The notes beneath the pieces are model-generated. The model did no database searches. It was not told where the DNA came from and saw only the letters and a program-made list of their open reading frames with translations. Positions 29,169 to 40,065 of a stretch of DNA of 64,000 bases are shown piece by piece; the first letter of the stretch is position 1; each line of letters starts with the position of its first letter. A program made the translations under genes and the position numbers. Location of the stretch: contig BPJV01000005.1 in NCBI GenBank assembly GCA_026004795.1, positions 1 through 64,000 of the forward strand. The letters are read 5' to 3'. This DNA is from Pirellulaceae bacterium. Its GTDB lineage: Bacteria; Planctomycetota; Planctomycetia; Pirellulales; Pirellulaceae.

Positions 29169-30608
29169 TCACTTGCCGATGCAGAATCGACTGAAGATAT
29201 TATCCAGAATGTCTTCGCTGTGGACTTCACCCATGACGCCAGCCAGTCGATCGATGACCCATCGCAAGTCAGCGGCGACCAGTTCGTCGGCGGCGCCAAG
29301 GTTGACCGATGCGATGGCCGAGTGCAGCGCCTGACGAGCGGCGATCAATTCGGCGTGGCAACGTGTCAGTGTCGACAGTAGTGCGCTGCTGCGCGGCCCT
29401 TGAGTGCTGTTGCTCAACGCTTGCCGGAGGTGCTGCTTCAGCGTCTCGATCGTCTCTGGGCGATGGATGCTGACCTCCAGCGCGCCACCGGTGGCCTGGC
29501 CAGACTCCCACGCATCAGGCAGGTGCGCGGGTTGATCCGCTTTGGTCCACAGAACGGTCACGGGAGCAAACGGTTGCACCTCAGCCAATAGGGCTTGCCA
29601 TGCAGTCGGCGGTACCTGCTGGGGATCGACGCAGAGTAACAGCCAATCGGCGCGTTGCAACTGTATGCGCAAATGCTGTTGCGCCACGGCGCGCGGGCTA
29701 TCATCCTGCCACTCTTCCCAGCCCGCCGTGTCGATGCACTCTATGCGCAGGCCGCCGAGGTCGACGCTACTGCTAACGGCGTCTCGGGTGGTGCCGGCTC
29801 GATCACTGACGATGGCGTGCGGGCGACCGAGGAGAGCGTTGAACAGGCTGCTCTTGCCGGCGTTGGGGTATCCCACCAGCACCACGCGAGGCTCGCTGAG
29901 CCGGTGCCCACGTGACTCGATCTGCTGCAAGAGGCTGGCCAGTTGATGGTCGATCGCCTGCAGTCGCCCGTGCAGCGTCTCGGCGGAGATGAACTCGATG
30001 TCTTCCTCGACAAAATCCAATCCGGCTTCCAAGTGCGCCAGCAGTTCGATCATCTCGTCGCGCAGGTGCCGCACCGGATGGGACAAGTTGCCCGCCAATT
30101 GAGCGAGGGCTGCATGCAATTCCTCGGGCGTTTGCGCCTCGATCACTCCCAGTACCGCTTCGGCCTGCGCCAGGTCGAGTTTGCCGGCGAGGAACGCCCG
30201 CAACGTGAACTCGCCGGGGCGAGCCAGCCGCGCTCCACAGGCGATGGCCGTCTCCACCAGTCCTGCCAAGATGGGTAGGGAGCCGACCACGTGTAATTCA
30301 GCCGAGGGCTGGCCGGTGTAGCTGCGCGTGCTGGGCCACCACAAGCAATGGGCATCGATCGAATAGGAATCCAAAGGCGATCCTTCGACGTGCAGACGAC
30401 ACGTGCCCGGCAACCGCACCGCGCGGCCATTGGTTGGTAGTTTGGTGGCCGGGCATGAGCCGTTTGCTGGTGGCTCGCGGTCCGTGCCGATCGGAAAAAA
30501 GAATTGGCTTAGCACCGCATTGGTGCGCGGTCCGCTCAGGCGCACGATGCCCCGGACCGCTGGAGCATCCGCACTGCTGATGGCCACAATGGTATCGTCG
30601 ACGTCCAT
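29169..30608 (-). CDS. mnmE: tRNA uridine-5-carboxymethylaminomethyl modification GTPase MnmE
   Basis: A complete MnmE of about 480 residues. The N-terminal folate-binding domain includes TIVAISSADAPAVRGIVRLSGP and RPGEFTLRAFLAGKLDLAQAEAV. The central helical region surrounds a G domain with the P-loop GYPNAGKSSL, SDRAGTTRD, DTAGWEEW and the WTKAD motif. The C-terminus is DILDNIFSRFCIGK, ending in the catalytic Cys-x-x-Lys. With MnmG it adds cmnm5 to U34 of tRNAs. ATG 30606-30608 fits the family start (MDVDDTIVAIS). An earlier ATG at 30663-30665 would add 19 residues and still not overlap the upstream gene. MnmG is not in the window. Confidence 0.95.
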   Translation of the reverse strand: MDVDDTIVAISSADAPAVRGIVRLSGPRTNAVLSQFFFPIGTDREPPANGSCPATKLPTNGRAVRLPGTCRLHVEGSPLDSYSIDAHCLWWPSTRSYTGQPSAELHVVGSLPILAGLVETAIACGARLARPGEFTLRAFLAGKLDLAQAEAVLGVIEAQTPEELHAALAQLAGNLSHPVRHLRDEMIELLAHLEAGLDFVEEDIEFISAETLHGRLQAIDHQLASLLQQIESRGHRLSEPRVVLVGYPNAGKSSLFNALLGRPHAIVSDRAGTTRDAVSSSVDLGGLRIECIDTAGWEEWQDDSPRAVAQQHLRIQLQRADWLLLCVDPQQVPPTAWQALLAEVQPFAPVTVLWTKADQPAHLPDAWESGQATGGALEVSIHRPETIETLKQHLRQALSNSTQGPRSSALLSTLTRCHAELIAARQALHSAIASVNLGAADELVAADLRWVIDRLAGVMGEVHSEDILDNIFSRFCIGK

Positions 30609-30681
30609 AAGCGAAGGATTGCCGTGGTTGCGACTCGGGCGTGGTGTCGGCTGACTAGGTGCCATGGTCTCGGGGGCCAGC

Positions 30682-32016
30682 CTACGGGCCACCGGGGGAA
30701 CCAAGTTGCAGTCGGCCCGTCTCCGCTTGCCGTCGTGGCGGTGGGGATGCACCGATGGGGCCCGGAGCCGCGCCGGTTCCCACCCCGGGCGAACCGGAGG
30801 ATCCGGTGACGCTTTCCAGTCCCGGCATCTGCCCGAAAAGATCCAGGACGGCCTGGAACGCCTCGTTGAACAGTTGTTGTGTTTCGGCAGCAGCCATCAA
30901 CTTCAACTGTCCGACCAGTCCTTGGAGGAAAAAACGTGGCATGGTGAAAGATTGCGGATCCAGCTGTGTCAGCCTCTGCTTGGCTTTGTTCATCGCGGAG
31001 TCCCAATCGGAGAGCAAAGTCTTGGAAGTCCACCGGCCGTCGATTCTGATCATGTACCAGCGGACGATGGGCTTACCCTGAGCAGAGATCTCGATGACCC
31101 CCTCGTCCTTTTCTTCGTTGATAACTACGAGAGAGACTTCCTCGTCTTGGCTCATGGTAAGCGAGCGCAGGCCCTCAAACGGTGGCGGCAGTTGTTGCAT
31201 TGATCCTCCAGCAAATGTGTCCTGGAGGGCTTGCAGGGAAGGAAGGGTCTCGCCATGCAGCCTCGCCAACCACCGGATAATATTCTCCTTTTCGAAGTTG
31301 TGCTCTTCCCACAGCGACGGGTCGGCCAGGATGTCGAGGAATTGGGACAGTTGCGGCCAGGCTTCTTCCATCATGGCGCGTCGCTGGGGATCATTCTTGA
31401 AGATGGGGTGTTCCAGAATGAATTGTTTCTTCTCTCTAGCGACCGTGGCCATAAGGTTGATCAGTTCTTGCAAACTGGTGCGCAAGGGGGCGACCTTCTG
31501 CATGGCCAAGGCGAGAATCTCCGCGATGTCGTTTTGCATTTTGGGAGTAAGCATGTGCCAGAGTATCGCCGCATGGCCAGCATTTGCTTCCCGCTCGACG
31601 ATCTCCGCCCACTGGCGGAGCGTGATATCGGCGTCGAACGGGTATTGAAGCAGTTCGTCGGGATCCACGCGGGGCACTTCAGTGACCGCTCGTTTGGGTT
31701 CTGCCTTGGGCAAAGGTTTGTTAAACGCTTCGGGTTTGCCGAGCTTCAACGCGCGGAGTTGATCAGCAAAGGATAGTCGCGAGAGGGGGATCTCCGCTTC
31801 TTTCCCGTCGCTGCGACGCCGCAAGATGACGCCGTCATCGGTCAAGCGAACGAACTCGGCGCGTACTTCAGCGCCACCGATGTTCCACACGTTGGAGGAA
31901 AGGTCGCCTTGCTGGGCAATGGCGCTTGCACGATGGCCGGCAGTCAACGCGACGGAATTGGCGACGAGGCAGGCCAGGAGATGCAAGACGAGCCGGTGGC
32001 GCATGCGGCGGTGCAT
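30682..32016 (-). CDS. Exported SHD1-domain protein
   Basis: A 444-residue protein with a signal peptide (LVLHLLACLVANSVALTAGHRASAIA). A short SHD1-like unit follows (VWNIGGAEVRAEFVRLTDDGVILRRRSDGKEAEIPLSRLSFADQL), a small beta domain common in planctomycete exported proteins. The rest is helical and low in known motifs, ending in a Gly/Pro/Ser-rich tail. No catalytic residues are visible. The stop lies just upstream of mnmE on the same strand, so they may be co-transcribed, probably without a functional link. Confidence 0.75.
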   Translation of the reverse strand: MHRRMRHRLVLHLLACLVANSVALTAGHRASAIAQQGDLSSNVWNIGGAEVRAEFVRLTDDGVILRRRSDGKEAEIPLSRLSFADQLRALKLGKPEAFNKPLPKAEPKRAVTEVPRVDPDELLQYPFDADITLRQWAEIVEREANAGHAAILWHMLTPKMQNDIAEILALAMQKVAPLRTSLQELINLMATVAREKKQFILEHPIFKNDPQRRAMMEEAWPQLSQFLDILADPSLWEEHNFEKENIIRWLARLHGETLPSLQALQDTFAGGSMQQLPPPFEGLRSLTMSQDEEVSLVVINEEKDEGVIEISAQGKPIVRWYMIRIDGRWTSKTLLSDWDSAMNKAKQRLTQLDPQSFTMPRFFLQGLVGQLKLMAAAETQQLFNEAFQAVLDLFGQMPGLESVTGSSGSPGVGTGAAPGPIGASPPPRRQAETGRLQLGSPGGP

Positions 32017-32165
32017 TTTCGTCCTCTCAGCAGAGAATTGACAGGATGAAGAACGGATTCTGAAAGACTCGTTTATTGTAACTAGACCCGGCGATGCTTG
32101 TGCTCCACTTTTCCGGTGCTAGGCCGGGGCCGGCCGGGGGATGCCGCGGCCGGCATGGGCAGGGG

Positions 32166-33218
32166 TTAAGGTAACGAGTCGAAACGTGGCGGCACGTCGA
32201 CGAGGGATGGAGATTCGTTGGACGAGGAGGCACCGACATAGATTTCGCATGTACAGCGCAGCGGGCCGGTGGTCGAGGAGCGTTTGCAGCGCAACCGCAA
32301 GCCTGTCTCGGTGACTCGTACCACCACGGCGTCGACGTCGGGATCGGAAAGTTCGAAGTGCACGGTCGGTTTATGGCCAAAGGGTTGGGGAAAGGCAAGG
32401 GCGAGGACCGCTTCTCGTTGAGCGGGCGCGAAATCGATGATCATGCTGCCGCTAAGATAACGTTGGCCTGCTTCGTCAACGTCGGTGATCAACTGCAGCA
32501 GGGGAGCGTGTTCACCGCTCATGATCTCGCTGTCCTGCGTCGCTGACGCTTCATCGTCGAGGATTCCCGGGGGCTGATCAGTCGCCAACGAGGCAGAAAA
32601 ATCCACTACGAGACCAGTCGTGCTTGGCGAGGCGGACTCGGATGCCGTGTGTTGCCAGGGGGCGTGCGGCATCGTCGCGGGGGCGGGAGACGTCGTTGCC
32701 GTCGGCCGTTCAGCGGCTGGGGGCCGCGACCGCGGCGGGTGACCGCGCCATGACCAAGCGAGTTCGACCGCGCGACGGATCGCCCAGGAGAGGGACGCTG
32801 TCAACTCCCGCCAGTGTTGCCAGCGGGACCACCCCGCGTGTTGCAGGTGGTGTGCCAGCCAGGCTTCGGCTATCCCCACGCCGACAATGGCGATTAGCGA
32901 TTCTCCGATGGCAGCCGATTGGAGCGCCACCGCGCCGATCAAGTTGAGCCAGCCGACATCGATCCACAGCAAGATCCATGGACCTGCCGCTCGGTAGGCG
33001 GATACACTTCGTTGCATCAACAGTGGGGCACGAACGCAAGTAGCAAGGATGAAGGCCACCACGGCCAAGCTGCTGCCCCATCCCGGAGACCACTGCCGGG
33101 GCGGACCGACAATGGCCGCTAACCACATCAAAAAACTGCACACCATCCATGCTACCGCCAACATCGACGGTAGCGACCAACGACTCCACCAAGGCCTACC
33201 GACGGGCATGCGCCGCAT
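32166..33218 (-). CDS. Membrane protein with cytoplasmic beta-rich domain, unknown
   Basis: A 350-residue protein. Four N-terminal hydrophobic segments (including SMLAVAWMVCSFLMWLAAIV and GWGSSLAVVAFILATCV) are followed by a Pro/Ala/Ser-rich linker (about 160-200). A C-terminal beta domain (ITDVDEAGQRYLSGSMIIDF, PTVHFELSDPDVDAVVVRVTETGLRLRCKRS) follows. No family is recognised. It begins six bases after the metK stop and is probably in the metK transcript. The hydrophobic part and the linker suggest a membrane-anchored binding domain. Confidence 0.65.
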   Translation of the reverse strand: MRRMPVGRPWWSRWSLPSMLAVAWMVCSFLMWLAAIVGPPRQWSPGWGSSLAVVAFILATCVRAPLLMQRSVSAYRAAGPWILLWIDVGWLNLIGAVALQSAAIGESLIAIVGVGIAEAWLAHHLQHAGWSRWQHWRELTASLSWAIRRAVELAWSWRGHPPRSRPPAAERPTATTSPAPATMPHAPWQHTASESASPSTTGLVVDFSASLATDQPPGILDDEASATQDSEIMSGEHAPLLQLITDVDEAGQRYLSGSMIIDFAPAQREAVLALAFPQPFGHKPTVHFELSDPDVDAVVVRVTETGLRLRCKRSSTTGPLRCTCEIYVGASSSNESPSLVDVPPRFDSLP

Positions 33219-33224
33219 GAGAGT

Positions 33225-34403
33225 TTACGCCGTCACGGCCGCTACACCCAGGCGTTCGGCCAGCTCGCCGGCTCGAGAGGTGTCTTCCCAGGAGAACCCG
33301 TCCCGCCCGAAGTGCCCACCGGCTGCCGTCGCCCGGTAGATGGGGCGCTGCAGATCGAGGTACTTGATGATTCCCCCCGGGGAAAGCGGAAAGAGCTCCT
33401 TGACCGCTTCGCAAATCGCCGCATCATCGACCTTGCCAGATCCTTGGGTATCGACGTGCACGCTGACCGGGTCGCTAACCCCGATGGCGTAGGCTAGTTG
33501 CACTTCACAGCGATCGGCCAGACCAGCGGCCACGATGTTCTTGGCAACATGCCGCGCCATGTAGGCCGCGCTCCGATCGACCTTTGTCGGATCCTTGCCG
33601 CTGAACGCTCCCCCGCCGTGACGTCCCCAGCCACCGTAGGTGTCGACAATAATCTTGCGCCCGGTCAAACCACAGTCGCCATGAGGTCCGCCGACGACGA
33701 ACTTGCCGGTGGGATTGATGTGGTAGGTGATGTTCGAGGTGTCCAAGTCCTCTGGCAAGCACGGTTTGACGATTTCCTCCTGGACGAACGCGCGGATCTC
33801 AGCTTGGGTGACATCCGGAGTGTGCTGCGTGGAGACGACAACTGCGTGCACGCGTTTGGGAAGAAAGCCTTCGTACTCAATGGTTACCTGACTCTTGCTA
33901 TCCGGTCGCAGCCATGAGACCACGCCGTTCTTTCTCGCATCGGTCAGCCGATTGGTGATGCGGTGGGCAAGGGCGATGGGCAGCGGCATCAGCTCGGGAG
34001 TATCGTTGCACGCGAAGCCGAACATCAGGCCTTGGTCGCCAGCACCGATGTCTTTGTTTTGCGCCTTGTCTTCATTGACTCCTTGGGCGATATCCGGGCT
34101 CTGCTCGTCCAGGCTGACCATTACGCAGCACGTGTCGGCATTGATGCCTGCCAGGTCGTCGACATAGCCGACTTCACGGATAACATCTCGCACTACGCGC
34201 GTGTAGTTGACCTGCGCTTTGGTCGATATCTCCCCGGCGATCATCGCCAAACCTGTGGTGACGAGCGTTTCGCAGGCCACGCGGCTGGTCGGATCCTGAG
34301 CCAATAGGGCGTCCAATACTCCATCGGAGATCTGATCCGCCAGTTTGTCCGGGTGCCCCATACTGACCGATTCGCTCGTAAATAGATACTTACCACTAGC
34401 CAA
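33225..34403 (-). CDS. metK: S-adenosylmethionine synthetase
   Basis: A complete MetK of 392 residues. Motifs are [24 protein letters not shown] (ATP/Mg), [66 protein letters not shown] and [14 protein letters not shown]. It makes S-adenosylmethionine from ATP and methionine in the cytosol. The family start [14 protein letters not shown] is encoded with TTG at 34401-34403. The nearest upstream ATG (34472) would add an atypical 23-residue leader. The TTG start is therefore preferred. No SAM riboswitch is evident in the 170-base region upstream. Confidence 0.95.
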
Positions 34404-34572
34404 CGTTGATACCCCTATCCGATTCCCAGTCGATTTATCAAAGAACCCTGCACGCCCGTCACACGCCTCCATGGTCTACCGATGGCGACACCTCGACGGA
34501 CAATCGCATTAGTATACTTGCAGATGGAAAGGGGCGAAAGCGGCACATGGCAGTTGAACAACCGGTCGCGCG

Positions 34573-35001
34573 TCACTGCTCAATGGTGACCGACATCGGT
34601 TTATGGATCAACGTTCCCCGATACCCGAGATAGAGTTCCCCGTCGAGCGCAATTCCGCGAAGGCGTTCCAGGCTACCTACGACCATGAGGTGGGCCGACA
34701 GGGTTTGATGAGCAGCGATTTCCAACGGAAGTGACTTTGGACCAAAGTCGAGTGATACCCCTCAACAATAGGAGCTGCCTGCCACAAGAATGGGATAGGG
34801 ATTGTTGTTGGTAATCCGCAGTTCGATCTTTTGGTAGGGGCTGTATTCGTCGTGTAGTTCTTGCCGCTGCCCGGTGGTCTCGATTTTCACTCGGTACGCT
34901 GGTAGGTAGGTTGTCCACAAGCTCTCGATAACAGGGGCCGCGACCAAAATGGTGCCGATCGCCAGTAACAACCACGGTAGAAAAGCTTTCGCGTGTCGCA
35001 T
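34573..35001 (-). CDS. Candidate selenoprotein: membrane-anchored beta-sandwich protein with in-frame UGA
   Basis: Reading TGA as selenocysteine, the frame from ATG 34999-35001 runs 142 codons to TGA 34573-34575. Residues 5-30 form one membrane segment (AFLPWLLLAIGTILVAAPVIESLW). The rest is a predicted beta-sandwich (RVKIETTGQRQELHDEY and KIELRITNNNPYPILVAGSSYC). Codon 80 is TGA directly after Cys79. After it the frame remains natural protein (LPLEIAAHQTLSAHLMVVG, ALDGELYLGYRG and a TIEQ end), not shadow composition. A SECIS-like hairpin follows (separate entry). Alternatives are a nonsense mutation of Cys or Trp, or a sequencing error. Fold and function are unknown; neighbouring Cys-Sec suggests redox chemistry on the outer face. 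It lies upstream of metK on the same strand. Confidence 0.6.
34733..34764 (-). promoter_or_regulatory. SECIS-like hairpin after the in-frame UGA
   Basis: Counting the UGA as 1-3, nucleotides 16-21 (GACUUU) pair perfectly with 27-32 (AAAGUC), with the loop GGUCC at 22-26. The loop starts with G and its GGU is at 22-24. From memory of the E. coli fdhF SECIS, its GGU occupies the same positions. The 18 nucleotides between UGA and loop fall in the range described for bacterial SECIS elements. The lower stem is imperfect. The match is suggestive, not proof of SelB binding. Confidence 0.6.
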
Positions 35002-35096
35002 CGATTCTGACCTCACGCTTGAAGTCGCGGCTAACGGATCGCCTGCTGGATGGCCCTTCATTGTAGGTTGGCTTACTAAGGGATGGCAAATCGATT

Positions 35097-35543
35097 TTAG
35101 TAGCCCTCCTCGTCAGTGATGCTCCACGTGGGGCTGGAGCCATCGCGGGAGGCAGTTCGCGGTTGGACTTCGTAGGCATGGGGATCATCGTAATAGGTTG
35201 ATGATTCTTGCGCCGGGGCGTTTTCTGCAGGGGGAACGGTAGGCCGCGGAGTACGTTTTACTTCCTCGGTGCTCTGCGTTTTGTCGGCAAACGCCTCTGC
35301 TGCGGCGGGATCGCTGAAGATGGAACCGACGCGGCCCTCGACCGGATCGGTTCGTTCCCATTTTCCACCCACCGTAGCGTAGTCATCGAGAAAACCCGGA
35401 TGGCCGATAGCGCAGCCGCTCAACACGAGGAGGCTGGCCAGCGTAACCGTTGCCCTTGGTAGGTTCCCCTTGGTTGGCAGACAACGTGGGAGGGAAACGT
35501 CTTGGCCACTATGGAATTTCCCAACTTGTCTCTTCCGCCACAT
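35097..35543 (-). CDS. Small lipoprotein
   Basis: A 148-residue exported protein. A long charged leader is followed by a hydrophobic run ATVTLASLLVLSGC that matches a lipobox, with Cys44 as the likely lipid attachment site. The mature part (WERTDPVEGRVGSIFSDP) is followed by an acidic, Ser/Thr/Pro-rich, probably unstructured tail. I do not recognise it. The true start may be internal, because the leader before the hydrophobic run is unusually long. It lies 95 bases upstream of the candidate selenoprotein on the same strand. Confidence 0.65.
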   Translation of the reverse strand: MWRKRQVGKFHSGQDVSLPRCLPTKGNLPRATVTLASLLVLSGCAIGHPGFLDDYATVGGKWERTDPVEGRVGSIFSDPAAAEAFADKTQSTEEVKRTPRPTVPPAENAPAQESSTYYDDPHAYEVQPRTASRDGSSPTWSITDEEGY

Positions 35544-35960
35544 GTTGCTGGTTCTCGCTTTTTGTAACTGGTCAATCGTCGGTTCATCGTCCCGCCGCGG
35601 GGTGACTGCTGCGCTCCCCGGTTGGTTACTCTAAAGACTGAGATCGGCAGATTGCGACGGTGCGGTTTAGGCAAAGTTTGCAGCCTGGGCGGGGTGAGGT
35701 TGGCGGGCCGTAGCCCGTAGCGAGGGGATGCTACGCGATTACACGCCGTGGGGCGGCATCGGCATGCGGCACGCGCCGCTGATACTCGCCGAGTCAAGAG
35801 AGCGCCTGGATGGCTGTTGCAAGCAGGGCGTGGGCAGAGATTGCAAGGAGCAGTTGACGAGCCTATAACGCTGGCAGTAGTGGGGAAGGGGGCGCGGTTG
35901 ACGCCACGGCAGCGGAAGACGACGCCTTGCGAACATCAGCGGCTGGCCTACCGTAGCGGC
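35544..35960. other. Intergenic region without visible gene
   Basis: 417 bases between the mlaD stop and the lipoprotein start. Frames on both strands are Arg/Pro-rich shadows. No terminator that I can defend. Confidence 0.35.
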
Positions 35961-37160
35961 TTATTTGATGCCACCGGTTGGACGACCTGATATGACGCCG
36001 CGCAGGTCGATCAGGCGGGCCGGATCGCGAGCGATTTTATCCGTAGCGATCCGTGCATCTTCCACGATCGGCTGCAGACGGCGGGTAAGTAGTTCGACGT
36101 TTTGCAATGTGTTGATCAGCGAATAGTAGAGTTGATCGTCCTCGATCAGCTTGGCCAACGTGCCCTGACCTTGATTGACGCGGGCGGAAAGTTGGCTGAT
36201 GTTGCTTGCCGCGCCACGTAGGTCGACCAACAGGGCATCCAGATTTTGTAAAGTTCGCATGGCATCGGCTACGATCTGTTCGCCGTTCTCTCCCAGTGGT
36301 TCGGTGAGAGCTGCCATGTTTTGCATGGTCTGCTCCGCGGCGCGGCCTGCGTCTTCGAAGGAGGCCAACGTGTTTTGTGCTTGGGTCATCACTTTATCCG
36401 CTTCTTCGACTAGCGTCGGCAAGCGTTGGGCGATCGTTTCCATGGCACTCTTGATGTTCGGATCGTCGAAGACGGCGCGCACCGCATCAAGCGTACGGTT
36501 GAAGTTGCCCACCGTTTGCTCGATGCGCTGACCCAATTCACGCAGTTCGCCGTCTCCGCTGCCGAGCAATCGCCGCATGTCGCCGGCCAGTGCGGAGACT
36601 TCGTTACCGGCTCGCTCGATCGATTGCAAAGTGGTTCCAAACGAGCTTTGCATGTCGGACAAGGCATCCAGTGGGTCGGGGGCGACCACACCGCCGGAGA
36701 GGAACTGCCCATCTTCCAAGTAGGCATTGGCCAACTGCATCTCGTTTTCGTCCAACTGACCATCCTGGGGAGAGCCCCCAAGGCCATCGAACCGCGTGAT
36801 CAAGCTCTCGGTCGTCGGTGGCACGAACTCGACCACGGCATCGCCAGTGATTAAGGAACCGGCACTGATGCGCGGCAGTTCGCGGGCACGCACCTTGTAT
36901 CGTTGGTCCAGTTCCAAAGTAATATCGACCCCGCCATCATCGAGCAGGCGAAAGTCCTTGACGCGACCGATTTGTACGCCACTCTTGCGCACCGGGGTGT
37001 CCGTGGCCACGCCGGGCGCCGCCTCGAAACGAATGGTCACCGTGTAGTGGTCCACAAAAAAGTTGGGGGCGGCACCAAAGAACATGATCAGAATGATGGC
37101 GATGACCAACGAGGCCACCACCACCACGCCCACACCGAATTTGTATGCTTGTTCGTTCAT
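35961..37160 (-). CDS. mlaD: MlaD/MCE-family lipid-binding protein
   Basis: A 399-residue protein. An N-terminal membrane anchor (VGVVVVASLVIAIILIMFFG) precedes one MCE domain (VTIRFEAAPGVATDTPVRKSGVQIGRVKDFRL, with the glycine pattern of the family). A long helical C-terminal region (VRAVFDDPNIKSAMETIAQRLPTLVEEADKVM) follows, likely a coiled coil. It is the periplasmic lipid-binding component of a Mla-type ABC transporter and the third gene of the mlaE-mlaF-mlaD operon. The C-terminal helices may form a tunnel or extended bridge, as in some MCE proteins. Confidence 0.93.
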   Translation of the reverse strand: MNEQAYKFGVGVVVVASLVIAIILIMFFGAAPNFFVDHYTVTIRFEAAPGVATDTPVRKSGVQIGRVKDFRLLDDGGVDITLELDQRYKVRARELPRISAGSLITGDAVVEFVPPTTESLITRFDGLGGSPQDGQLDENEMQLANAYLEDGQFLSGGVVAPDPLDALSDMQSSFGTTLQSIERAGNEVSALAGDMRRLLGSGDGELRELGQRIEQTVGNFNRTLDAVRAVFDDPNIKSAMETIAQRLPTLVEEADKVMTQAQNTLASFEDAGRAAEQTMQNMAALTEPLGENGEQIVADAMRTLQNLDALLVDLRGAASNISQLSARVNQGQGTLAKLIEDDQLYYSLINTLQNVELLTRRLQPIVEDARIATDKIARDPARLIDLRGVISGRPTGGIK

Positions 37161-37190
37161 GGCGCAGTTTCTCCGGTCGACGCCCCACGG

Positions 37191-38090
37191 CTACCGCGGG
37201 TACTTGTCGGCCAAATCGGGAGTGTCGCGATAGGCATCCAGCGTGGCCATGCGCATCTCCATCAGCCGTTCCCCTGCTTCGCCGAGTACAAACTGGCGCA
37301 CCCGTCGGTCGTCACAGGACTCCAACTCTGACGGTGGACCGTCGAACAGGATTTGACTTTCTCCCCTCGACAAACGGTGTTGGGGATAGAGCATCACCAC
37401 TCGGTCGGCAACCTTGTACGCAGTCCGCATGTCGTGGGTGATGATGATGCTGGTCACCCCCTTGCTTTGTCGCGTACGGATCATCAATTCGTTAATGACA
37501 TCGCTCATGATCGGATCCAAGCCAGTGGTCGGTTCGTCGTAAAGGATCAGTTCGGGGTTGAGAGCCAAGGCACGAGCCAGTCCTACCCGCTTCCGCATGC
37601 CTCCCGAAAGTTCTGCTGGCCGTTTCGGGATCACCGTGTCGGGCAAACCGACCTCTGCTAAACGGTCGCTTACGATGCGCCACAGTCGCCGGCCACTGGC
37701 GATGTGGTGATGAACCAACGGGAAGGCTACGTTCTCACCCACCGTCATGCTGTCGAACAAGGCCGCATTTTGGAACACAAAGCCATGCCGACGGCGAACT
37801 TCCGTCATCTCCATTTCGCTTAACCGGTGGATATCCATGCCGTCGTAGAGCACTTGACCACTGGTCGGACGCACCAGTCCCACTATCGACTTGAGCAACA
37901 TCGTCTTTCCACATCCGCTCTCGCCGATGATGACCAGGGTCTGGCCGACGGGAACCTCGAGCGAGATGTGATCGAGAATCGTTTGTCGTCCGAAACGCAA
38001 AGTCAACTCCCGCAATTCGACCAACGGACGCCGCTGCTCCGATCCTGGTTGCGGCGTACTTGCTGCCTCGCGCGATTCAGCCATCGTCAC
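37191..38090 (-). CDS. mlaF: ABC transporter ATPase, MlaF/MkL type
   Basis: A 299-residue cytosolic ATPase. Walker A is GESGCGKT, the Q-loop NAALFDSMTVGENVAFPL, the signature LSGGMRKRVGLARAL, Walker B ELILYDEPTTGLDP and the H-loop IIITHDM. The GGMRKR signature is typical of MlaF rather than other ABC classes. A Pro/Ser leader of about 20 residues precedes it. ATG 38088-38090 or the ATG at 38084 may be used. It is 31 bases from mlaE and 30 from mlaD, so the operon order is mlaE-mlaF-mlaD. Confidence 0.95.
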   Translation of the reverse strand: MTMAESREAASTPQPGSEQRRPLVELRELTLRFGRQTILDHISLEVPVGQTLVIIGESGCGKTMLLKSIVGLVRPTSGQVLYDGMDIHRLSEMEMTEVRRRHGFVFQNAALFDSMTVGENVAFPLVHHHIASGRRLWRIVSDRLAEVGLPDTVIPKRPAELSGGMRKRVGLARALALNPELILYDEPTTGLDPIMSDVINELMIRTRQSKGVTSIIITHDMRTAYKVADRVVMLYPQHRLSRGESQILFDGPPSELESCDDRRVRQFVLGEAGERLMEMRMATLDAYRDTPDLADKYPR

Positions 38091-38121
38091 ACCTCGTCAA
38101 CGGCAAATGGGAGCCAACGGG

Positions 38122-38994
38122 CTACAACAGCTTGGCGGTCTGCGGCCAGATGGCGACGTAGATCGCATCGAGCAAGATGTTCAGCATCAAGTCGATTCCC
38201 AAAATGAGCACGAAACTGAAGACGAAGGCTGCCGTCGCCGCACGCCCCACCCCTTCGGCGCCCGCTTGACAGTGGAATCCCCGATAACAACTCACGATGG
38301 CGATCGTGCCACCAAAAAACACGCTCTTGAAAATGCCCATGAAAAAATCCCAACCACCGACAAATTGGCGGCTATTGTTCAGATATTGAAAGTGATCGAT
38401 TCCCAGAATCAACACGCTGTAAAAATAACCACCGACGATCCCCATGAAGTCGGCCATAATCGTCAAGGCGGGAATGAGCATGATACAGGCAAGAAAACGG
38501 GGCACGACCAGGTAGTGAATGGGATTCGCTCCCATGCTTACCAGAGCATCGATCTGCTCGGTCACCCGCATGGTGCCGAGCACTGCTGCCATGGCACTGC
38601 CCACCCGTCCGGCCAGCATGGTGGCAGCGAGCACAGGCCCCAGCTCGCGCACCAACGACATATTGATCACCGCCCCCAACCGGCTTTCCAGACCCAAATC
38701 GTGGAATTGCGCGTAACTCTGTACGGCTAAGACCATCCCGATAAACGTTCCGGTCAAGGCGACCACAGGGAGACTGAGAACTCCCACGTTGTAGAAATTG
38801 GGGAGGATCGTGCCGCGGCAGGGCATTCGTGTCAGCAACCAGCGAAACATGTGACCCGCAAAAATTGCCATGTCACCGACCGTCACGATGGCATGAACCA
38901 CCATCTCCCCCCAGTCATAGATCCACTGGTACAAAGGCGTGGGAATGCGCTGGGCCCACGGGGGAAGCGGACTACTGGCAGGGACCGACGACAC
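38122..38994 (-). CDS. mlaE: ABC transporter permease, MlaE type
   Basis: A permease of about 290 residues: GVLSLPVVALTGTFIGMVLAVQSYAQF, ELGPVLAATMLAGRVGSAMAAVLGTMRVTEQIDALVSMGANPIHYLVVPRFLAC and FMGIFKSVFFGGTIAIVSCYRGF, all characteristic of MlaE/MCE permeases. It carries phospholipid across the inner membrane for the Mla pathway. GTG 38992-38994 is favoured by AAGGAG nine bases before it; ATG 39087 would add 31 residues. It heads the mla operon and is divergent from trmD. Confidence 0.93.
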   Translation of the reverse strand: MSSVPASSPLPPWAQRIPTPLYQWIYDWGEMVVHAIVTVGDMAIFAGHMFRWLLTRMPCRGTILPNFYNVGVLSLPVVALTGTFIGMVLAVQSYAQFHDLGLESRLGAVINMSLVRELGPVLAATMLAGRVGSAMAAVLGTMRVTEQIDALVSMGANPIHYLVVPRFLACIMLIPALTIMADFMGIVGGYFYSVLILGIDHFQYLNNSRQFVGGWDFFMGIFKSVFFGGTIAIVSCYRGFHCQAGAEGVGRAATAAFVFSFVLILGIDLMLNILLDAIYVAIWPQTAKLL

Positions 38995-39131
38995 GAACGT
39001 CTGCTCCTTGATCGAACGAGGGTACCATTCTACAACTACGCGCTGACTACCGATTGAGCGCACTGTTAAGCTGTATCGGTCGCGCAAGGGTTTCGGCTCC
39101 AGCTTGTTCTATCAAATCTTCATGTGAGCTA

Positions 39132-39914
39132 ATGGGTGCATTGCCAGCGATTCGATATGACATCATTACCCTGTTTCCTCAAATCCTCGCGGGGTTTGTA
39201 GGAGAAAGTCTGTTGGCTAAAGCGATCGCCCGGGGGCTGATTGAAGTCCATACGCACAACCTGCGAGATTGGTCTCCGGACAAACGCCACCACAAGGTCG
39301 ATTCCCCTCCCTACGGCGGTGGGCCAGGGATGCTGATTCAGGTGGAGCCGACGGTGTTGTGTGTGGAAGCGGTGCGGCGGATGCACGAAGAGCCGGGCGA
39401 GCTCATTTTGCTGACCCCTGCCGGTCAACGGTTCGATCAACCGTTGGCTGCGGAACTGGCGACCCATCGGCGACTGATCTTTTTATGCGGACGCTATGAG
39501 GGCTTTGATCAACGCGTGGTCGATATTCTCCAGCCGCGTGAGATCAGCCTGGGGGACTTTGTGCTCAACGGCGGCGAAGTCGCCGCCATGGCGATGGTCG
39601 AAGCCACGATGCGGCTGATCCCTGGCGTGTTGGGTGATGCAGCAAGCAGCGTCGAGGACTCGTTCTCCGATGCTCAGTTGCTGGAATTTCCTCAATATAC
39701 GCGCCCCAGGACGTTCCGCGGCCATGCCGTTCCCGAGGTATTGCTCAGCGGCAACCATCAACAAATCGCCCAGTGGCGGTCCGCCCAGCGGTTGGCCCGT
39801 ACCGCACGCCAACGCCGTGATCTTCTTCAGGATGCCTCCAGCAACATGCCATGCCCCGCGTCGAATGATTCAGGCGTAGATGAAGCTGAGCAGAACCGAA
39901 GGCCTGGCTACTGA
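39132..39914 (+). CDS. trmD: tRNA (guanine-N1)-methyltransferase TrmD
   Basis: A 260-residue SPOUT methyltransferase starting MGALPAIRYDIITLFPQI. Motifs are LRDWSPDKRHHKVDSPPYGGGPGML, LIFLCGRYEGFDQRVVD, EISLGDFVLNGGEVAAM and PQYTRPRTFRG. TrmD methylates G37 of tRNAs to prevent frameshifting; GGGPGM and GRYEGFDQR are conserved SAM/tRNA-contacting elements. ATG 39132 is chosen by family homology. Unlike the common rpsP-rimM-trmD-rplS operon, none of those genes adjoin. It is divergent from the mla operon. Confidence 0.96.
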   Translation: MGALPAIRYDIITLFPQILAGFVGESLLAKAIARGLIEVHTHNLRDWSPDKRHHKVDSPPYGGGPGMLIQVEPTVLCVEAVRRMHEEPGELILLTPAGQRFDQPLAAELATHRRLIFLCGRYEGFDQRVVDILQPREISLGDFVLNGGEVAAMAMVEATMRLIPGVLGDAASSVEDSFSDAQLLEFPQYTRPRTFRGHAVPEVLLSGNHQQIAQWRSAQRLARTARQRRDLLQDASSNMPCPASNDSGVDEAEQNRRPGY

Positions 39915-40065
39915 GACCAATCCGATCTCGTCTCGTCAACATAGCGATTCGCGCCCCCCGAAGCACTGCTTGCGTGCGCCGAGCCACTACGCCCGGTGCT
40001 GCCCCCGATTGGGCACGCCGCTCATCACCGCACGATGCGAGATAAGTTGCGGAGAATTTGAAAAC

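Follow-up and report, generated by a model that had tools for sequence, protein, structure and literature searches.

A predicted planctomycete selenoprotein family with an Ig-like domain and a conserved SECIS-type hairpin behind its in-frame UGA

The window analyzed here, a stretch of 64,000 nucleotides from a Pirellulaceae genome (contig BPJV01000005.1), carries a minus-strand gene whose reading frame passes through a TGA (Table 1). Codon 79 is TGT (Cys79), TGA follows directly as codon 80, and 62 sense codons separate it from a second TGA at 34575-34573, which is the final stop of the gene. The mechanical ORF list stops this frame at TGA 80. Thus, the first-pass annotation was right both on the in-frame TGA after Cys79 with 62 codons behind it and on its statement that only 79 residues would be called by a gene finder that treats UGA as a stop. 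The upstream neighbor is an ORF (35097-35543) that is lipoprotein-like by eye and has no Pfam match, while the downstream neighbor codes for an S-adenosylmethionine synthetase (33225-34472). The genome itself (5.59 Mb, 17 contigs) is 96.8% complete and belongs to the same family as G305, a genome that also carries relatives of this gene.

Table 1. Features of the predicted selenoprotein gene, in window coordinates
Feature	Position	Strand	Evidence
Selenoprotein gene (predicted)	34573..35001	-	ATG at 35001, 142 residues, Sec at 80, final stop TGA; with the window-free profile, read-through 39.8 bits vs 13.7 for the first 79 residues
TGA codon 80, very probably read as selenocysteine	34762..34764	-	The same alignment column is TGA in 28 other loci and TGT in one homologue
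SECIS-type hairpin GACUUU-GGUCC-AAAGUC	34733..34749	-	6 bp, 5-nt loop; covarying over 30 aligned loci
N-terminal membrane helix, residues 7-32 (predicted)	34906..34983	-	AlphaFold2 model and hydrophobic stretch in the sequence
Ig-like beta domain, residues 38-125 (predicted)	34627..34890	-	AlphaFold2 model, mean pLDDT 74; relatives match Pfam DUF1573 and other Ig-type families weakly
GAGG, likely ribosome-binding site	35011..35014	-	9 nt upstream of the ATG; read from the sequence

The AlphaFold2 model of the window protein (mean pLDDT 74, pTM 0.58) comprises a helix at residues 7-32 and a beta domain, followed by a tail (residues 127-142) with pLDDT under 50. Cys79-Sec80 is located between strands 71-76 and 82-85. 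On the basis of this model, the protein is predicted to consist of a membrane helix and an Ig-like domain, and a periplasmic location of the domain is inferred from the N-terminal helix. A Foldseek search against the PDB returned nothing at E ≤ 0.001, the first row being an archaeal filament (E 0.007), and the list contained weakly similar PapD-, MSP-, HYDIN-, and PCuAC-like Ig folds. Pfam matches in members of the family described below were also weak, namely DUF1573 in 8 of 22, PapD-like in three, HYDIN-type in three, and ASH in two.

Behind the TGA, the perfect 6-bp hairpin with a GGUCC loop reported in the first-pass annotation was confirmed, with GGU at nucleotides 22-24 counting from the U of UGA. 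RNAfold adds one G-C pair to it, resulting in 7 bp and a 3-nt loop. The published bSECIS model (PMC13188914, Fig. 2 legend) has a loop of 3-9 nt, a stem of 4-16 bp, a G in the first two loop positions, a spacing of 16-37 nt, and a minimum free energy at or below -7.5 kcal/mol, the folding length being unstated there. The window hairpin meets these criteria for loop (5 nt, GGUCC), stem (6 bp), loop G, and spacing (18 nt). Its energy is -9.7 kcal/mol for 42 nt and -6.7 kcal/mol for the 23-nt core, and -7.5 is reached only by the longer stretch. The SECIS element of Escherichia coli fdhF has GGU in its loop. Like fdhF-type bacterial SECIS elements, the window hairpin sits right behind the UGA and has a small loop starting with GGU, which lies 18 nt after the UGA and hence inside the 16-37 nt of the published model (PMC13188914, section 5); the point of difference is its energy, which reaches the published limit for the 42-nt stretch but not for the core alone.

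Taken alone, however, this hairpin is weak evidence and is not clearly beyond chance. Shuffled sequences folded as well in 44 of 200 cases for the 42-nt stretch and in 5 of 200 for the 23-nt core, and random synonymous coding of the window peptide produced an equally long stem in 20% of draws and an equally low energy in 12%. We also searched the genome with a hairpin model (R1) of which the window is itself part. The window was the top match (26.6 bits), and the four other matches (22.7 bits or less) showed no family context by eye.

Other loci carry the same TGA as the window gene. Searching the read-through protein against 397 genomes of the class yielded a homologue with Cys in place of Sec (L021 in G305, E 1e-6) and, among the weak matches, a locus with TGA at the same place (L026 in G382). 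A four-row profile then led to another 20 loci whose TGA falls in the same column, and a 22-row profile run on 241 genomes to seven more in the window's own family. These profile searches bring the count to at least 29 TGA loci in 23 genomes, the window included, or at least 28 besides it; the counts are lower bounds since the genome searches scored only part of the first-look candidates. Among 392 genomes of the phylum searched at E ≤ 1e-6, eight matched and only the window had the TGA. The homologues and the Cys at residue 80 that the first-pass annotation had proposed looking for, by translating through the TGA, were thus found. Its claim of a new selenoprotein is supported, with the correction that the gene is not isolated and represents one member of a planctomycete family.

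Several loci were set aside. Of 28 loci read from the 397-genome search, L021, L024, L026, and L028 were accepted by eye as family or distant family, and the others were judged unrelated. L010 (G004) was rejected with an E of 0.009, several stops, and a position opposite to larger ORFs, as were L101 (G007) and L099 (G071), whose TGA is its final stop. Five weak TGA-bearing matches with E from 0.03 to 0.09 (G134, G203 C44, G159, G199, and G421) remained outside the counts. A first pattern scan of contigs gave 38 matches, none of which was confirmed, and a second one gave a single locus, L079, on contig C15 of G305. L090 (G153) was excluded from alignments A3 and A7 because of an extra in-frame TAA near its end and kept in the hairpin rows and the window-free profile. 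L089 (G288) has a TAG before the conserved part; these two stops may reflect decayed genes or errors in the metagenome-assembled genomes. Another genome, G185, contains four copies of the TGA type, two of them within about 3 kb with repeated neighbors at L082, which corresponds to a local expansion.

The family is very diverse, the window sharing only 15-24% with other members in alignment A7. There, 28 rows place their TGA in a single column, and the six rows that lack TGA in that column all carry Cys. Cys directly precedes Sec in 24 of the 29 TGA loci, a Cys is found at position +4 in 25 (the exceptions being the window, L085, L096, and L138), and Sec is followed by Gly in 18. A Cys-Sec pair outside a membrane anchor, as initially proposed, is supported by this frequency of Cys before the TGA and by the modeled helix 7-32 preceding the beta domain. 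The motif has to be corrected, as the family commonly has Cys-Sec-x3-Cys and the window member lacks the +4 Cys.

In the family as a whole, the hairpin becomes informative, being conserved and covarying. It was found at the same place in 30 of 30 rows (the 29 TGA loci and L021), and the recurrence of both the TGA column and the hairpin at the same place in 28 other loci is far beyond chance. MAFFT brought the stems of the 30 rows into register on sequence alone, and RNAalifold recovered the inner five pairs unaided. The stems are group-specific (GCUUC/GAAGC, ACUUU/AAAGU, GUGUUUC/GAAACAC, GCGUUUC/GAAACGC, and UCGGUC/GGCCGA), and the peptide varies partly along with these differences between groups. 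Using a six-pair register, 89.4% of 180 cells were paired vs. 77.5% in shuffles. Changes on both sides occurred in five of the six pairs, which was reached by 2 of 500 shuffles, and there were 23 double-change cells compared to 6.0 in shuffled data. The covariation score was 0.337 vs. 0.137, with none of 500 shuffles reaching it. The count of further pair types was unremarkable, as 91 of 500 shuffles reached it. Of the 30 rows, 12 do not form the outermost pair, and the fit of L138 and L142 to the register is poor. When the partner strand was slid by 1-3 columns, pairing dropped to 25-41%, but this control is biased toward the hairpin since the structure was named from the same sequences. Kinship of the genomes also inflates the covariation counts. 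Combined over the 30 rows, the synonymous-coding test gave P values of about 1e-6 for the stem and 7e-10 for the energy; it treats related rows as independent, and its true strength is therefore less.

The Cys homologue L021 has TGT at the Sec position and retains the hairpin GACUUUGGUUCAAAGUC, which taken alone is also non-significant in the synonymous-coding test. Such a combination would be expected of a recent change from Sec to Cys, a possibility with which the tree is consistent without being strong. There, the window is on a long branch and groups with L141 (Sec) and L021 (Cys) with support of 94/86, not starred. Genome G305 holds both this Cys form with its SECIS-like hairpin (L021:1348-1830) and a separate TGA form (L138).

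The codons behind the TGA evolve as coding sequence. With a profile built without the window, the last 62 residues alone scored 6.7 bits, and joining them to the first 79 raised the score from 13.7 to 39.8 bits. The 6.7 bits exceed all 829 of 1000 shuffles that obtained a score (best 4.3), and the other frames of the DNA behind the TGA were below 0 or without a score. Comparing L139 with L140 over 65 codons after the TGA, we counted 12, 3, and 39 differences at codon positions 1, 2, and 3, respectively. Position 3 differed most in 12 of 12 pairs, clearly in close pairs and hardly in distant ones, such as the window and L141 with 37, 30, and 38 differences.

The machinery for selenocysteine is present in the window genome, as SelA (504 bits), SelB (332 bits), SelD (239 bits), and tRNA-Sec (77.9 bits) all exceeded their cut-offs. 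ARAGORN also calls the tRNA-SeC, and the SelD and SelA genes lie 1.3 kb apart on contig C8. Across genomes, SelA was matched at E ≤ 1e-60 in 215 of 397 class genomes, including all 17 TGA genomes of that draw. Of the six TGA genomes outside the draw, five had SelA. Hence, 22 of 23 genomes carrying the TGA form have SelA, compared to 215 of 397 in the class. The only one without a match, G483, has a completeness of 84%, and SelA is present in two of its congeners. SelA is widespread in the class, and the association is inflated by relatedness among the genomes.

Taken together, UGA 80 is very likely decoded as selenocysteine in this family, with a probability of roughly 0.93, because the codon is retained in distant relatives together with the RNA hairpin downstream of it. 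This conclusion is supported by comparison, without protein or selenium data. SelB with Sec-tRNA-Sec, guided by the hairpin behind the codon, would read UGA 80 and give a 142-residue protein. Members of the family would share an N-terminal membrane helix, one Ig-like domain, and a Sec that is usually preceded by Cys and usually followed by another Cys after three residues, with Cys replacing Sec in some relatives.

To see what surrounds these genes, we looked at 28 TGA-gene regions. Of these, 13 contain a protein of ~360 aa with a C-terminal helix, 8 contain a MauE-DUF1573 fusion, and 10 contain a DUF1559 pilin-like protein. The profiles for these neighbors were built from members of the same regions (8, 2, and 2 sequences, respectively), and contig ends truncate several of the regions. 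Components of a cassette encoding secreted and membrane proteins are thus present in about half of the regions of the relatives; inspection by eye showed Cys-rich secreted proteins next to L081, L083, L093, and L102, and the regions of Cys-type relatives L104, L145, and L146 also hold cassette parts. Near the selenoprotein gene of two loci, MauE-type membrane proteins are fused to a DUF1573-like domain (L102:1117-2172 and L092:2748-3647). In L092, the MauE part matches PF07291 of Pfam at 1.6e-9; the match in L102, at 1.3e-4, is below the cut-off. None of the ~360-aa protein, MauE-DUF1573, or DUF1559 was found in the window region 30000-40000, where the selenoprotein gene stands alone. A second DUF1573-like frame is present elsewhere in the window genome (L100:2483-2878, contig C2); it contains an in-frame TGA (Cys-Ser-TGA-Ala) and stays open for 59 codons beyond it. 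Downstream of this frame, a Cys-rich secreted protein and a protein of 356 aa are encoded, and a DUF1559 match lies upstream, a cassette that resembles those of the relatives. No clear hairpin was seen in this frame, and its part behind the TGA had no score against the family profile.

The likeliest function of the protein is a thiol/selenol redox role, although this is inferred rather than shown and could as well prove wrong as right. The domain would face the periplasm, and Cys79-Sec80 would act as a redox pair that makes and resolves selenenyl-sulfide or disulfide bonds in secreted proteins. In some of the relatives, the MauE-type protein with its DUF1573-like domain may be a partner serving as an electron conduit, and at some loci the Cys-rich secreted protein may be a substrate. 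We are inclined to doubt these partners more than the redox role itself. They are inferred from the relatives' neighborhoods, and the inference rests on relatives because the window gene lies outside the cassette. A bolder reading, which can only be offered as a possibility, is a planctomycete selenium-dependent system for secreted proteins. A membrane-anchored Cys-Sec-x3-Cys selenoprotein with an Ig fold would exchange electrons via a MauE-DUF1573 membrane partner, and disulfides would be set in the Cys-rich secreted and pilin-like DUF1559 proteins of the same cassette. If true, this would represent a thiol oxidoreductase with a scaffold other than the thioredoxin fold. Most characterized selenoproteins have a thioredoxin-like fold (PMC13188914, section 7).

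Among the alternatives, the one that survives best keeps the selenoprotein and has Cys79-Sec80 bind a metal, such as copper, without dithiol redox chemistry. Cys-Sec pairs could bind soft metals, and Foldseek relates the Ig-like fold weakly to PCuAC and other copper chaperones. On the other hand, these copper-chaperone matches are weak, with none at E ≤ 0.001, and MauE-type redox neighbors are found in part of the relatives. Metal binding thus remains conceivable. It is very improbable that TGA 80 is an ordinary stop, leading to a 79-residue product or a decayed gene with a leftover frame behind it. The mechanical ORF list does end there and the hairpin is weak in the single sequence, but the same-column TGA in 28 other loci, the conserved, coding-type sequence behind it, the covarying hairpin, and the Cys homologue all argue against a stop. 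Reading of the UGA as Trp or Cys by suppression is no more credible. The Cys homologue suggests that Cys insertion would be tolerated; however, the Sec machinery including tRNA-Sec is present, the hairpin has the published bacterial spacing (PMC13188914, section 5), and family genes themselves end in TGA (e.g., the window gene, L086, L087, and L091). Finally, a sequencing or assembly error for TGC, TGT, or TGG in the window genome, where the TGA is taken from the assembly alone, can be practically ruled out because relatives carry the same TGA (same codon in 29 loci, 23 assemblies).

With the selenocysteine reading, one more selenoprotein family is gained, whose genes are cut in half by any gene finder that ends frames at UGA, and PMC4807772 was the only selenoprotein literature found for planctomycetes. 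We could not match this planctomycete family to a described one, and it is probably new as far as our searches reach. No NCBIfam model (June 2026) exceeded its cut-off in the scan, which covered 29 of the 30 loci and left out only L090. Below the cut-offs, four families appeared in one member each, as well as choice_anch_D, midcut_by_XrtH, and PRK07021. None of the 119 families in Table 1 of PMC13188914 is listed with a Cys-Sec-x3-Cys motif, and no paper in the searched literature, including PMC12013277, PMC4807772, and PMC9312934, was recognized as treating the family; journal coverage was incomplete and supplements were outside the search. The predicted Ig-like fold, along with the recurring secreted and membrane neighbors in part of the relatives, makes a role for the family testable.

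The nearest row in that table is the DUF1573 domain selenoprotein (PF07610, motif UGC), to which the family is likely related at a distance. Both have an Ig-like domain, Sec-Gly is found in 18 of the 29 family loci, and PF07610 gave weak matches in 8 of 22 members and, in addition, in L139 (best E 0.00058, 20.3 bits). The family scores shown (L139 20.3, L092 14.6) are, however, under the 26.1-bit gathering cut-off, the other matches among the eight had a best E of 0.007 (for scale, 26.7 bits went with an E of 5.6e-6), and the window protein itself had no DUF1573 match in Pfam. The DUF1573 selenoprotein also has a Sec-Gly-Cys motif, compared to Cys-Sec-x3-Cys in the new family, which in addition has an N-terminal membrane helix. 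MauE-type redox membrane proteins (PF07291) are linked to the family as neighbors in 8 of 28 TGA regions, with their fused DUF1573-like domain, but they are not the same protein as the selenoprotein and are not near the window gene. Some likeness was also seen to the OS_HP2 family (seleno)protein (NF041425), as L092 matches nearly the whole 98-position model (E 0.04). This best score is only 14.2 bits vs. a cut-off of 100, it concerns one of 29 loci scanned, and the window had no match. Of note, the domain fused to the MauE protein of L092 matches the OS_HP2 (seleno)protein at 1.7e-8, without a TGA.
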